Below the pieces are notes generated by a model that did no database searches, was not told the origin of the DNA, and saw nothing but the letters and a program-made list of their open reading frames with translations. Positions 53,302 through 63,703 of a DNA stretch of 64,000 nucleotides are shown here, piece after piece. Positions within the stretch are counted from its first letter, which is position 1. Each line of letters begins with the position of its first letter. Source of the stretch: Fibrobacter sp. UWR2 (GTDB taxonomy: Bacteria; Fibrobacterota; Fibrobacteria; Fibrobacterales; Fibrobacteraceae); assembly GCF_002210285.1 (NCBI RefSeq), contig NZ_MWQE01000001.1:248001-312000 (forward strand), read 5' to 3'. A program made the translations under genes and the position numbers.

Positions 53302-55947
53302 TTACACCGTCTTCTTGGAGCGGTTGGACCACCAAAGAACGATCGGCGAGCAGATGCACACGGAGGAGTAGGTACCGATGAGGATACCGAAGCACTGCAC
53401 GAGACCGAAGTCGCGGATGGAGGAACCGCCCTTCACGGCGAGGATCACGCACACGAACAAGGTCGTGAGGGAGGTGACCACTGTACGGCTGAAGCACTGG
53501 TTCATGGACTTGTTGATGGTTTCGCCGAAGTTCGCAGAACCGAATACCACGGTGTTTTCACGGATGCGGTCGAAGTTCACGATGGTGTCGTTCACGGAGT
53601 AACCGATCATCGTGAGGAGCGAGGCAATCAGGGCGCCGTCGAAGGAGAGGCTGAATGCCGAGATGAAGCCGAGCGTGATGATGGTATCGTGCACGAGGCC
53701 GAGCACGGCTGCGACACCGAAGCCGAGACCGAACTTGCCGAAACGGAACCACACGTAGAGCAGGATGCCGATCCAGGCGAGAATCACGGACAAGATAGCG
53801 TTGAAGCGGAGTTCCTTACCGATGGTCGGACCCACGGTGTCCTTAGCAACGATCACGCACTTCTGGTTGGCCTTGTCGAAGGCCTGCTGCATGGTGGCTT
53901 CGAAGTTGGCGTCGTCGGTGCGGAGGCTGACCTGGTAGGAGTTGGCAGAAGTACCGCCGAGAGAGCGGACCTTCGTGCCCGTAATGCCGGCAGCGGAGAG
54001 AGCTTTGCTCAAATCCTTTTCGTGCTTGGCGTCATCCTGGTACTGGATGGTGTAAACCTGACCACCGGTGAAGTCGATACTGAAGTCGAAACCCTTCACG
54101 GCGATGCAGGCGATGCTTGCCACGATGAGGACGAGCGAGATAATGCCGAACTTGCGACGGTTCGGGATAATCTGGAGGTTCGCCTCGTTGATGGCCTTGA
54201 AACCGTTGCCGATGGAGAGCGTCGTGGCGTCACGCTTGGCGAGCTTCCAGTCGAGGATAGCGCGGGTGAGCGTGATGGCGCAGAAGAGGGAGGTCAGGAT
54301 ACCGATAGTAAGCGTAAGACCGAAACCCTTCACGGAACCGGTACCGATTTTGTACAGGATAAGGCCAGTGAGAACGGTCGTCAAGTTGGAGTCCAAGATG
54401 GCGCTGAAGGCGCGTTCGTAACCCTTGGCGACGGCAGCACGGGCGGTGAGGCCGGCCTTGAGTTCTTCACGGATACGTTCGTAAATAATCACGTTTGCGT
54501 CGAGCGACATACCCACGACGAGGATGAAGCCCGCAATACCGGGGAGCGTGAGGGTCGCGTTGAACACGGACATCACGGCGGCGGTCACGAGGGTGTTGAT
54601 GAACATACCGATGCTCGCGATGAAACCACCGAGGCGGTAGTAGGCGACCATGAACACCAAGCAGAGGATAAGGCCGATAGCACCGGAACCGAAACCCTGG
54701 ACGATGTTTTCTTCACCGAGGGTGGCACCGACGGTACGGCTTTCGATAATCTTCATCGGGGCCTTGAGGGCTCCGGCGCGGAGCACGACAGCGAGGCGGT
54801 TAGCTTCGGCCATGTCGTCGAGACCGGTAATCTGGGCGTCGCCGTTCGGGATGCGTTCGTTGATGCGCGGGGCGCTGATGACCTGGTTGTCAAGCACGAT
54901 GGCCATCTGCTTGCCGACGTTGGCGGCCGTGACAGCGGAGAACTTCTTGGGACCGATGCCGCCGAACTTGAGGGTCACGGCGATTTCACCGGCGCTCACA
55001 CCGTCAGAGATACGGTGCGGCTGGGCGTTCACGATGTCGTCACCGCCCATTTCGGCACGGCGCTTGAGGAGGTAGAGACGCTTGGCCTTCACCGGAGAGT
55101 CATTCTTGATCTTCTCGAGACCGCTACCGAAGGCGAAGTTTACATCGCGCGGAATGAGCTTCTTGACACCGTCAAGTTCGAGGATCTTCTTGACCTTCTC
55201 GATATCTTCTTCGGCGATGAACCCGCCGTTGCCGATATTCATGTAGTAGTCGCTGAGAGCCTTCCCGACCGCGGATGCCGGTGCGGCTTCGGTTTCTTCC
55301 GTCTTGGAGGAATCTTCGGCCTTCGGGGCTTCGGCAGCAGCGACGTTTCCGCTCAGGAGTTCTTCATCGGAGAGCTGCTTGGCTGTGTCGGCGGCAGCAG
55401 CGACCGTAGAGTCCTTGACTGCGGCACTGTCCGTAGCGGCAGAGTCGGCTGCGGTCACATCGGAAGTCTGGCGGGTCAGGTACTGGTCGATGAGGGTGAG
55501 CGTCGTGTTGAACTTTTCAGATTCTGCGAGAATCTTGAATTCAAGTTTTGCGGTAGAACCCACGAGCGACTTGGCGGTAGAATCGTCCACGCCGGCAAGT
55601 TCGACCAGGATGCGGTCGTCGCCGGAGGGAGAAATCTGCGGTTCGGAAAGACCGAACTGGTCAACACGGTTACGGATAATTTCCAGAGACTGGGCCTGGA
55701 TGTCCTTGATATCGTCGTCTTCCTTGAGGCCGGACGGGTCGATCTGGAGCGTGATGCTCGTACCACCCGCGAGGTCAAGGCCGAAGTTGATGGACCTAGT
55801 TGCAAGTTTCGGGTTTTCCTTGAGGAAGGCCTTCTGCTCTTCGCCCTTCTTGGTGTGAACCTGGATAGAGGGCCAAACAGTGTAGGCCGAGAGTGCAATG
55901 ACGAGGAGAATAAAGAATTCTCGCATGCCGAATTTATGTTTGTTCAT
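53302..55947 (-). CDS. secDF: SecD-SecF fusion protein
   Basis: Protein-translocase accessory subunit using proton motive force. 881 residues, joining SecD and SecF. SecD part: INFGLDLAGGTSITLQIDP and VELAGVDD near the N-terminus; LRAGALKAPMKIIESRTVGATLGEENI, and GFILVVGMSLDANVIIYERIREEL in the membrane domain. SecF part from about residue 600: GFDFSIDFTGGQVYTIQYQ and MIGYSVNDTIVNFDRIREN. A low-complexity Ala/Asp/Glu/Ser stretch (about residues 168-235) is inserted in the first periplasmic domain, absent from typical SecD. Single-gene unit with terminator. Confidence 0.95.
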   Translation of the reverse strand: MNKHKFGMREFFILLVIALSAYTVWPSIQVHTKKGEEQKAFLKENPKLATRSINFGLDLAGGTSITLQIDPSGLKEDDDIKDIQAQSLEIIRNRVDQFGLSEPQISPSGDDRILVELAGVDDSTAKSLVGSTAKLEFKILAESEKFNTTLTLIDQYLTRQTSDVTAADSAATDSAAVKDSTVAAAADTAKQLSDEELLSGNVAAAEAPKAEDSSKTEETEAAPASAVGKALSDYYMNIGNGGFIAEEDIEKVKKILELDGVKKLIPRDVNFAFGSGLEKIKNDSPVKAKRLYLLKRRAEMGGDDIVNAQPHRISDGVSAGEIAVTLKFGGIGPKKFSAVTAANVGKQMAIVLDNQVISAPRINERIPNGDAQITGLDDMAEANRLAVVLRAGALKAPMKIIESRTVGATLGEENIVQGFGSGAIGLILCLVFMVAYYRLGGFIASIGMFINTLVTAAVMSVFNATLTLPGIAGFILVVGMSLDANVIIYERIREELKAGLTARAAVAKGYERAFSAILDSNLTTVLTGLILYKIGTGSVKGFGLTLTIGILTSLFCAITLTRAILDWKLAKRDATTLSIGNGFKAINEANLQIIPNRRKFGIISLVLIVASIACIAVKGFDFSIDFTGGQVYTIQYQDDAKHEKDLSKALSAAGITGTKVRSLGGTSANSYQVSLRTDDANFEATMQQAFDKANQKCVIVAKDTVGPTIGKELRFNAILSVILAWIGILLYVWFRFGKFGLGFGVAAVLGLVHDTIITLGFISAFSLSFDGALIASLLTMIGYSVNDTIVNFDRIRENTVVFGSANFGETINKSMNQCFSRTVVTSLTTLFVCVILAVKGGSSIRDFGLVQCFGILIGTYSSVCICSPIVLWWSNRSKKTV

Positions 55948-56160
55948 CTGTAATCCCTTAATAAGGCATTAATACGCATTTAGTTGCGGGTGCAAAGATA
56001 GAAAATAGTCACCGGTTAATGGTTGCCGGGTGCCGGAAATACGGGTGAGAATGGGCTTTTTTGAGTGTTTTAAGGGGGAGGGCTCCCCCTGGTTCGCACT
56101 ACGTTGCTCTCCACCCCTTCGCCTAAGGGGTTCCACCCCCTAAAACCCCCAGAAGTGAGC

Positions 56161-56195
56161 GCCATAGCCAATGCACTTATGCAATTGGCTATGGC
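56161..56195. repeat. 12-bp perfect inverted repeat
   Basis: GCCATAGCCAAT (56161-56172) and ATTGGCTATGGC (56184-56195) form a perfect stem, with three further base pairs inside (one bulge). No T-run adjoins. Confidence 0.7.
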
Positions 56196-56227
56196 CGAAC
56201 GCAAGGGGGTTCTGCAAACCCCCGATT

Positions 56228-56276
56228 GTCATGCCGGATGTCATGCCAGATGTCATGCCGAACTTGTTTCGACATC
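56228..56276. repeat. GTCATGCC 12-mer tandem array plus GTCATGCCGAACTTG element
   Basis: Copies at 56228-56239, 56240-56251 and 56252-56263; the last continues into GAACTTGTTTCGACATC, an inverted form of the intergenic repeat family. Confidence 0.6.
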
Positions 56277-56320
56277 GCCGTTCCTTACCAGAACCGCTTC
56301 CTATAAGAAAGTTTGCTACA

Positions 56321-56382
56321 AGAGGCTCTTTGCACACTCACACATTCACTTCGTTCGAGTGTTCGCTTAGCGAAGAGCCTCT
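56321..56382. repeat. 10-bp inverted repeat flanking nested palindromes
   Basis: AGAGGCTCTT (56321-56330) and AAGAGCCTCT (56373-56382) are perfect complements. Between them is TTCGC-TTA-GCGAA (56362-56374), a further palindrome overlapping the right arm. Confidence 0.65.
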
Positions 56383-56454
56383 CTCCGCAAAGAAACACGA
56401 GAGGTTCTTTGGAATGGGAACGCTTATTGTAGGGACATGCAAGAATCTGGTACT

Positions 56455-56492
56455 GCGAAAGCCTTGCGGCTGTTAGTCGCTGCGGCTTTCGC
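56455..56492. repeat. 9-bp inverted repeat with inner stem
   Basis: GCGAAAGCC (56455-56463) pairs with GGCTTTCGC (56484-56492); inside, GCGGC and GTCGC can pair with one wobble. Confidence 0.6.
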
Positions 56493-56534
56493 GAACGGCG
56501 GGTATCGTATTAAACTGCGGGTAGATGTTTTTTT

Positions 56535-56630
56535 TTAGGCGTCGATCTTGTAATTGTTGCGGGTGGACTTTTTAGCCTTGGAAGCGGATTTCTTGGTGTT
56601 CTTGTTGTTGGACTTGACGTTCTTGGACAT
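56535..56630 (-). CDS. Tiny basic protein, 31 residues, unknown
   Basis: The minus strand reads MSKNVKSNNKNTKKSASKAK then KSTRNNYKIDA, ending at TAA. Eleven of 31 residues are Lys or Arg and most of the rest are Asn/Ser/Thr. AAAAAGGCG precedes the ATG at workable spacing. Codons are AAG/AAC/TCC-rich like the highly expressed genes here, which argues for real translation. It is too small for most gene finders. A nucleic-acid- or ribosome-associated role is inferred from charge only. It lies next to the hairpin-rich gap. Confidence 0.6.
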   Translation of the reverse strand: MSKNVKSNNKNTKKSASKAKKSTRNNYKIDA

Positions 56631-56663
56631 GATTTTCGCCTTTTTAGTTAAAACTTTTCGTGT

Positions 56664-56682
56664 GGAATTTGAAGAAAATTCC
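56664..56682 (-). promoter_or_regulatory. Small hairpin upstream of the 31-residue gene
   Basis: GGAATTT (56664-56670) pairs with AAATTCC (56676-56682) in the gap between the lipoprotein terminator and the small gene. Confidence 0.3.
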
Positions 56683-56690
56683 ATTTGGGA

Positions 56691-56728
56691 TAAAACAATT
56701 ACAGCGCACCTCGGGGTGCGTTGTAATT
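56691..56728 (-). terminator. Terminator of the paralogous-domain lipoprotein gene
   Basis: AATTACAGCGCACC (56697-56710) pairs with GGTGCGTTGTAATT (56715-56728) with one G-T wobble; the minus strand then reads TGTTTTATCC. Confidence 0.82.
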
Positions 56729-56745
56729 ATTTTCAAAAATGTTGA

Positions 56746-58053
56746 TTATTCTTCTAGTTTAGTACAGCGGACGGAGAAGCCGTGAGTTTTGTACGTTTCC
56801 TGCTCAGTTAGGTACTCTCCCGAACGAGATGTTGCAGCGGCAAACGCTGTTGAAATTACTTCACCATTTTTAGAATAAGAACCTTCGTCGGGATAATACC
56901 AATATGTAGCCTCACCTATACGCGTTAATCTTCGATCCCAAATATACCCTGCACCGACGAGGGAATAGCCGCTGTAATTAAAGCCCCCAAATGATATTGC
57001 TCGAGCGTCTTGAATTCCGTGCTTATTGTTGTCCGCATGAAGCACAATGTAAAAATCGTCCTGAGTCAGAAGCCGCCAGCCATCCGGACAAATTCCCTGG
57101 TGGTTCGGCTGGATTAAATCGGCGCAGCTTTCGGTATTGCAGCGGCTCGGCAGCTGCATCATCTCGGCCCACTGGTAAAGTCCTCCGTAACGGTCGCAAT
57201 TTGTGGTATCCCTATCGTAGCAGTAACGCTCGATTAACGTATCGTTTGCCTGATCTTTTGTAATACCAACCATCTTGCCGATATTGAGGTTTTCTGCCAT
57301 TACGGTCACAGAAGCGGCCTCGCCTTTTTTGTTTTTCCCGTTTATCGTAATGTAGTAGTAGCTACGACCATTGCGTTCATCAACAAAAGTCTTGTAATCG
57401 CTGCTTTTGATACGAATAGCATCACCCAAATCAGCCTTATGGTCATACGGGACATAGCCGCTGCTACTGGGAACACTTGAACTCGACTGCGGAGTGACGC
57501 TGGAGGAGGAGTTCACACTACTGCTCGATTGCGGAGTGACGCTAGAGGAAGACTTCACACTGCTGCTGGATTTCGCGCTAGAGCTCGACTGCGGCGTGAC
57601 ACTAGAAGAGGACTTCGCGGAACTGCTAGACGCGACGCTCGAGGAAGACTTCGCACTGCTGCTAGATTTTGCAGAGCTGCTGGAAGATTTTGCACTGCTA
57701 CTGGACACACTTGTCTCGCTGCTGCTCGACTTCGGTGTGACGCTCGAAGAGGACTTCGCGGAACTGCTAGACGCGACGCTCGAGGAAGACTTCACACTGC
57801 TGCTGGACTTCGCACTAGAGCTCGACTTCGCGTTGACTGAAGAAGAAGACTTGGCAGAGCTACTGGACACACTTGTCTCGTCTTCGCTCGACTGCGGTGT
57901 GACGTCTTCGATACTGCTGGACGACTCGTCGTCGCGCGGGGCAAAACTGCTCTCATCATCACAGGCGGCCAAGAGAAAGATACTTGCGATAAAGAACACC
58001 ATACCGATGTGCCCAACGCATTTTAACGACGACAAAAGTCCAAACTTCTTCAT
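56746..58053 (-). CDS. Lipoprotein with Fibrobacter major paralogous domain (TIGR02145-like)
   Basis: 435 residues from ATG 58053, with GGAAGGAGG upstream. The lipobox FLLAAC is near residue 33 and is followed by a 160-residue poly-serine linker made of S-S-S-x-K/V/A blocks. Residues about 215-435 carry the domain characteristic of Fibrobacter: VMAENLNIGKMVG, RYCYDRDTTNCDRYGGLYQWAEMM, GICPDGWRLLTQDDF and SVRCTK at the end. Such proteins exist in many copies in Fibrobacter genomes; surface exposure is inferred, function unknown. Strong lineage marker for the window. Confidence 0.88.
   Translation of the reverse strand: MKKFGLLSSLKCVGHIGMVFFIASIFLLAACDDESSFAPRDDESSSSIEDVTPQSSEDETSVSSSSAKSSSSVNAKSSSSAKSSSSVKSSSSVASSSSAKSSSSVTPKSSSSETSVSSSSAKSSSSSAKSSSSAKSSSSVASSSSAKSSSSVTPQSSSSAKSSSSVKSSSSVTPQSSSSVNSSSSVTPQSSSSVPSSSGYVPYDHKADLGDAIRIKSSDYKTFVDERNGRSYYYITINGKNKKGEAASVTVMAENLNIGKMVGITKDQANDTLIERYCYDRDTTNCDRYGGLYQWAEMMQLPSRCNTESCADLIQPNHQGICPDGWRLLTQDDFYIVLHADNNKHGIQDARAISFGGFNYSGYSLVGAGYIWDRRLTRIGEATYWYYPDEGSYSKNGEVISTAFAAATSRSGEYLTEQETYKTHGFSVRCTKLEE
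57460..57925 (-). repeat. Serine-codon low-complexity repeat inside the lipoprotein
   Basis: Degenerate tandem units encoding S-S-S-A/V-K-S-S-S and S-V-T-P-Q-S. Direct near-identical copies (for example GACTTCGCGGAACTGCTAGA at 57611 and 57752) make it prone to slippage. The opposite strand is open by codon complementarity and is not a gene. Confidence 0.85.
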
Positions 58054-63630: not shown

Positions 63631-63703
63631 AGGCAACGATCAGACTCGAACTGATGAATAAGGCTTTTGCAGAGCCGCCCCTTACCAACTTGGGTACGTC
63701 GCC
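63631..63703 (-). tRNA. tRNA-Cys (anticodon GCA)
   Basis: The 73 bases fold as a cloverleaf on the minus strand. Acceptor GGCGACG pairs with CGTTGCC (one G-T), the D stem is CCC/GGG, the anticodon loop is CTGCAAA giving GCA, and the T arm is ATCAG/CTGAT with loop TTCGAGT. The discriminator is U73, a known identity base for cysteine. The 27-43 pair is a C-U mismatch. The 3' CCA is not encoded, so it must be added by the nucleotidyltransferase. Confidence 0.93.

Follow-up and report, generated by a model that had tools for sequence, protein, structure and literature searches.

A hairpin-dense intergenic block of Fibrobacter sp. UWR2 as a stack of dispersed repeats with a probably mobile element at its core

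The hairpin-dense block at positions 56050-56500 of the window (the whole stretch of 64,000 nucleotides from Fibrobacter sp. UWR2 that was analysed) is probably a nested stack of dispersed intergenic repeats, whose core, here called element B, would be a non-autonomous, hairpin-rich mobile repeat that among the matches listed has so far been found only in Fibrobacter. A stack of this sort is of a known kind, and the family at its core is apparently new. The literature that we searched yielded no description of these repeats; the paper on the F. succinogenes S85 genome (PMC3079729) places its insertion sequences and islands in a supplement. The B family thus appears to be undescribed to date and to deserve a name. 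The features referred to below are listed here.

56073-56150, no strand assigned: module A, a G-run/C-run inverted repeat (AAGGGGGAGGGCTCCCCC ... ACCCCCTAAAACCCCC), a genus-wide dispersed repeat identified by genome matches
56161-56223, no strand assigned: a 12-bp perfect hairpin (GCCATAGCCAAT/ATTGGCTATGGC) and a GGGGGTT/AACCCCC hairpin, from the stem scan
56227-56262, plus strand: three tandem 12-mers, TGTCATGCC(G/A)(G/A)A, read from the sequence
56311-56518, plus strand: element B (class 1b), a dispersed multi-hairpin element of 208 bp, defined by model R1, covariation and seven own-genome copies
56312-56391, plus strand: long arm of B, with helices P1 (56312-56316/56387-56391), P2 (56321-56333/56370-56382) and P3 (56340-56343/56359-56362)
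56346-56356, plus strand: conserved apical loop of the long arm, TCACTTCGTTC
56455-56492, plus strand: 3' hairpin of B, GCGAAAGCC/GGCTTTCGC, with an inner stem-loop at 56466-56480
56535-56630, minus strand: N-terminal stump, 31 codons long, of a formerly longer LEPR-XLL-type gene; it stops next to B
56746-58053, minus strand: gene for a FISUMP-domain lipoprotein (TIGR02145, PF09603), preceding the stump

Composition of the hairpin-dense block

The excess of hairpins that the initial annotation had noticed is real. A stem scan of the block found five non-overlapping perfect stems of 7-12 bp each, 42 bp in sum (56073-56090, 56113-56131, the 12-bp stem at 56161-56195, 56205-56223 and 56455-56492), as compared with means of 0.7 stems and 5.3 bp in dinucleotide shuffles; none of 200 shuffles and none of 283 windows of 451 bases, taken across the 64 kb in steps of 225 bases, attained these values. 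A stem of 13 pairs, one of them G.U (56321-56333/56370-56382), brings the number to six, and the triplicated 12-mer was located at 56227-56262. Folding of 56050-56530 resulted in z-scores of -5.6 on the plus and -4.45 on the minus strand, with none of 100 shuffled controls as stable on either strand. Element B by itself, folded as DNA, was only moderately unusual (z = -2.73 and -2.15).

The hairpins come from independent repeat families, and the main element extends to position 56518. An alternative raised in the initial annotation, stacked palindromic repeats, proved correct: separate dispersed repeats abut here, and each half of the block has its own set of copies. Searching the UWR2 genome (a draft of 3,278,051 bases in 20 contigs, listed completeness 100) with the block returned 11 further matches, seven to the right part only and four to the left part only. 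Module A (query positions ∼373-451) matches many genomes, including some in which B had no match (G003, G016 and G039), and has own-genome copies at C2:114330 and C1:321847. The second of these, C1:321847-321994, matches 56074-56222 and thus carries the companion hairpins along with module A, and the combination of module A and its neighbouring hairpins (56073-56223) is recurrent across the genus. Runs similar to the tandem 12-mers (GTCATCC/GTCATGCC) adjoin B copies in other genomes. Coding sequence over the block was considered and rejected, the open reading frames there being of at most 101 codons and overlapping on both strands; at two other loci (L318 and L319) a truncated upstream gene apparently reads slightly into B.

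Covariation in element B

Copies of B fall into two classes with a mean identity of 54% between them. In both, the long arm ends in a loop resembling TCACTTYGTTC, and the core of the 3' hairpin resembles GTGACTGTTAGTCCC; the loops are fixed in both classes, and the paired arms vary. For example, P1 reads TTTGC/GCAAA in the window and TTGGC/GCCAA in other copies. The covariance model R1 was built from six copies, and the score of 224.6 bits that it gives to the B of the window is that of one of these six sequences.

To assess covariation, representatives were thinned at 93% similarity and required to have recognisable ends. In 17 of the 19 class 1 representatives (L051 and L052, with mixed-looking P2 arms, were omitted), double changes occurred in 22 of 32 pairs and 94.5% of cells were paired, as opposed to 79.4% in shuffles; neither the paired fraction nor the number of double changes was attained by any shuffle. 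The covariation score was 0.474 versus 0.174 in shuffles, and slid structures scored at most 0.109. With all 19 representatives, 92.7% of cells were paired and 22 of 31 pairs showed double changes, the maxima among 200 shuffles being 81.2% and 15 pairs. Covariation was weak in class 2 alone (double changes in 5 of 35 pairs), which is less varied. Covariation as seen in class 1 would normally denote an RNA.

Generally, an RNA under selection tolerates G.U pairs and avoids A.C. The ratio of G.U to A.C in B was 12:10 in class 1 (25:26 for all 19 copies without the 60% filter) and 17:12 in class 2, the latter including a doubtful helix and becoming 10:12 when one of its pairs is removed. In contrast, RNase P of the same genus, for which 20 of the 23 loci entered were used, gave 55:8, a G.U fraction of 0.87. 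The differences from RNase P (Fisher p = 0.002 for class 1 and 0.005 for class 2; by column, p = 0.04) are indicative only, because the cells of related copies are not independent. Since G.U is about as frequent as A.C, unlike in RNase P, the B copies do not look like RNA genes that are maintained on one strand. Near parity is as expected of decaying copies or of pairing at the DNA level: the double changes may stem from different source copies and the mismatches from decay after insertion, or pairing may matter in the DNA itself. For a multi-copy repeat, as this comparison of G.U with A.C illustrates, strong covariation taken by itself can make an RNA gene look better supported than it is.

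The proposal of a structured non-coding RNA thus survived in part. The helices of B covary and its loops are conserved, but G.U is not preferred over A.C, and Rfam covariance models failed to overlap 56311-56518 even at E values up to 5, by which a known RNA family was rejected for B; at gathering score, the one Rfam match anywhere in the window was a tRNA (at 63631). Put in full, B would belong to a multi-copy family of ∼200-nt small RNAs, the apical loop UCACUUYGUUC and the 3' hairpin of which bind a partner. We regard this as unlikely. Besides the strong covariation and the loops fixed in both classes, a TATA-like stretch directly upstream of many class 1 copies speaks for it, but this stretch would place the transcription start within helix P1, and no sigma-70-type match was found adjoining B in the window. 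Nor do the G.U counts, the 40 of 80 genus genomes that carry no match or the lack of an Rfam family fit a small RNA. On the other hand, a decaying repeat would not need loops as fixed as these, which counts against the mobile-repeat reading, and a few transcribed master copies would be compatible with the G.U to A.C ratio; the RNA reading is weakened but alive.

Copies of B, their sites and neighbouring genes

The UWR2 genome (3.28 Mb) contains seven B copies with a conserved 3' hairpin, one of them with an internal insert, as well as fragments. Copies were likewise present in other Fibrobacter genomes: at E 0.01, the model matched in 40 of 80 same-genus genomes and had no match in 40. Twenty of the 80 were rich in B, with 5-18 matches each, numbers that are lower bounds as at most 30 candidates were scored per genome under strict filters. 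The core of the 3' hairpin, which served as the pattern for both the own-genome and the wide scans, was found in 90 stretches among ∼85,000 species genomes, and all 80 among the matches listed were from Fibrobacter; carriage by viruses was rejected, with the pattern in 0 viral contigs. B is mostly intergenic, since 104 of 109 distinct copies were clear of called genes, allowing an overlap of up to 50 nt, and only 5 were not. In one genome (G043), tandem copies with a spacing of 261 bp follow a groEL-like gene. B-rich and B-free groups, with mostly weak forks, appeared in a tree of 17 genomes, for which 6 of 23 were skipped because of cut loci.

This multi-copy, patchy distribution argues against a single chromosomal recombination or replication site, another initial suggestion, although B does sit at gene breakpoints. 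Many unrelated copies in the form of simple repeats would have spoken against a structured entity; because the copies are related and structured, this objection does not apply.

We compared sites with and without B, in which the names groEL, dnaG, hisC, IMPase, comEC and BrnT stand for what we take the genes to be. At the site of the UWR2 copy C1:428471, B follows an intrinsic terminator in three genomes (G000, G063 and G019) and is interrupted in a fourth (G070), while a model search found it absent in the 8 other genomes fetched. Of the 21 genomes for which 1.0-1.2 kb upstream of secDF was fetched, 6 (the window included) have B in that stretch, and the other 15 had no B match there at E 0.1; among the genomes without a nearby B, some carry it at the far end of the same interval. 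The flanks of the B-free sites were too diverged to fix borders or target-site duplications. Sites common to several genomes (upstream of a dnaG-like gene, behind the groEL-like gene and at secDF) imply that turnover is slow and that a function in place is possible. Other hairpin repeats interrupt B copies in G018, G019 and G070. At L358, L359 and L324, another hairpin repeat, CACGCCTCGTTAATACGAGGCGCTTGTGGCTCAC, was seen inside B, in many cases at GCTC, as though repeats inserted into one another's hairpins.

An intrinsic terminator precedes the flanks of class 1a copies in 3 of 8 cases as compared with 0 of 24 control windows, with little or no such preference in class 1b (1/10 vs 1/30) or class 2 (4/18 vs 3/54). 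According to a home-made gene caller, class 1 copies occupy convergent gene ends in 17 of 36 cases versus 34 of 142 gaps (p = 0.008, with each orthologous copy entered as a case of its own); class 2 copies show no preference (15/66) and no tie to gene strand. Could B then serve its flanking genes where it stands, either by terminating transcription in both directions or by forming mRNA 3' ends? The class 1 preference for convergent ends agrees with this, and equal numbers of G.U and A.C would fit the use of both strands. However, the only intrinsic terminator (G+C-rich stem and T run) found on scanning 55000-57500 was at 55269, within secDF, and none was in the block. In addition, class 2 lacks the preference, and at C1:428471 and in the three class 1a flanks a terminator already stands before B. 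We consider such a role highly improbable. Behind a pilT-like gene (L005, 1480-1560, and L079), the upstream arm GGCTCTTGAAG is the complement of the B 5' arm CTTCAAGAGC, so that a possible terminator and B overlap there.

The location first given for the block, between secDF and a tiny basic gene, was right for secDF (53302-55947, minus strand), but the gene on the other side is a truncated remnant. In G009 (L321 and L322) the same start runs for at least 258 codons, through LEPRLMMDA and past the fetched stretch, and NCBIfam LEPR-8K matched L321 with 18.7 bits, narrowly above the cut-off of 17. In the window, at L323 (G009) and at L325 (G043), the gene ends 26-44 codons into this start with B close behind, and longer truncated forms lie upstream of B at L317-L319 (G043 and G070). 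The truncated genes adjoining B indicate that a gene was lost with its breakpoint at B, regardless of whether B caused the loss. As judged by eye, a gene with a similar end to that of the FISUMP lipoprotein gene precedes the stump in eight other fetched places.

In the mobile-repeat reading that we favour, B would spread either at the DNA level or from a small number of master copies whose hairpins are recognised. It would insert into intergenic DNA, in the case of class 1a perhaps directly downstream of terminators, and decay thereafter. Gains and losses of genes may then have their breakpoints in repeated copies of B and of module A, and the truncated LEPR-XLL-type gene is a likely product of this.

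Gene rows in class 2 genomes and comparison with known elements

In sister species, class 2 copies can be accompanied by rows of genes. Read opposite to B, these begin with a promoter-like sequence (TTGCGA-17-TATATT). Next comes a leader of 35 bases (GTCTTATAGGGGCTCTTTATGAGCGGGGATAAAAC), which contains both a Shine-Dalgarno-like stretch and a start codon, and after it one or two genes, a second leader, more genes, a further leader and B. By a loose filter that admits at least one class 1 copy, 18 of 85 class 2 copies were followed on the 3' side by a leader repeat no more than 220 nt away, and in all eight of these with at least 2.5 kb of flank, the promoter-like sequence was present within 4 kb. 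At two places, hisC/IMPase-comEC and amylase-secDF (flanks named by eye), the genes within the interval differ from genome to genome. The latter is the interval of this window, in which amylase and secDF were both confirmed. At L131, L144, L154, L155, L165, L118 and L260, rows of small, often lipoprotein-like genes stand behind near-identical 35-base leaders, with one promoter-like sequence first and B closing all rows but that of L260. BrnA-like genes (NCBIfam match below cut-off) occur on the promoter side of the rows at L144, L155, L184, L186 and L118, i.e. at more than one hot spot, and some of these loci also have a BrnT-like gene, named by eye.

These rows raise the question of whether B closes, as a fixed distal end, a cassette platform of the integron type, in which genes are exchanged between leader repeats. 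We think this decidedly unlikely. The leaders, of which L131 has five, the promoter-like sequence and the differing genes in one interval speak for such a platform, yet 67 of the 85 class 2 copies have no leader repeat. By eye, moreover, no leader stood beside any class 1 copy among the hits and none was present in the window, and no recombinase was noticed among the open reading frames of the rows read. Because it holds a Shine-Dalgarno-like stretch and a start codon, the leader may instead be an expression signal carried by duplicated genes. Integron arrays, with attC sites and a Pc promoter, are similar to the class 2 rows in that these have a promoter-like sequence, a short site that is repeated and encloses a hairpin, units that mostly hold a single gene, and varying genes at fixed places. 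The leader differs, by eye, from the consensus of attC ends (GTTRRRY/RYYYAAC) and contains a start codon, and the resemblance would appear to be one of layout only. The fullest version of the platform is a long shot: a promoter, a hairpin leader providing the start codon and ribosome site, in most cases a single gene behind each leader, and B as closing site would make up a new Fibrobacter gene-capture platform, exchanging genes at several hot spots by an enzyme unlike integron integrases, with class 1 B as its relic and the truncated LEPR-XLL-type gene as one of its scars.

Several candidate enzymes for the movement of B were rejected. Y1/RAYT (PF01797) is absent from the UWR2 draft and present in 27 of 80 genomes, including 6 of the 20 B-rich ones (p = 0.79); reverse transcriptase (PF00078) was found in two of the 20 B-rich genomes, one of them that of UWR2 (p = 0.21). 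A recurrent transposase near B was likewise dismissed: judged by eye among the 25 largest clusters, the commonest cluster of open reading frames (46 of 80 named loci) comprises Ser-rich lipoproteins, taken for FISUMP.

Being multi-copy, non-coding, mostly intergenic and variable in presence, B has the characteristics of an ERIC- or BOX-like dispersed intergenic repeat. In their general features, ERIC/IRU, BOX and Correia (CREE/NEMIS) elements are, like B, non-coding, 100-200 bp long, present in many mostly intergenic copies, foldable on either strand and restricted to a clade. B differs from them in its long arm of freely varying paired stems, its two fixed loops, its tandem copies in one genome and the ability of class 2 to end gene rows. 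Also, no terminal inverted repeats were seen: on the unproven borders used, the 5' end GTTKGCT and the 3' end TTAAACNGC are not reverse complements, which on these borders also sets B apart from MITEs. REP/BIME elements with RAYT (Y1) are similarly dispersed, mostly intergenic hairpins, but B is longer and multi-armed, and the Y1 transposase is missing from its own genome and uncorrelated with B. Group IIC introns share with class 1a the position just behind intrinsic terminators (3/8 flanks vs 0/24); B, in contrast, is ∼200 bp long with neither an Rfam intron match nor a link to reverse transcriptase. In a CRISPR survey (PMC4852346), F. succinogenes S85 is listed with 29 CRISPRs, the most of any group named there, and repeat rows of the present sort might be among those calls.

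Fibrobacter is a main degrader of cellulose in the rumen. B and module A account for part of its repeat-rich intergenic DNA, and mark where small genes and genes for surface proteins (FISUMP and LEPR-XLL) are gained and lost. Whether a new kind of gene exchange exists can be tested directly on the class 2 gene rows.
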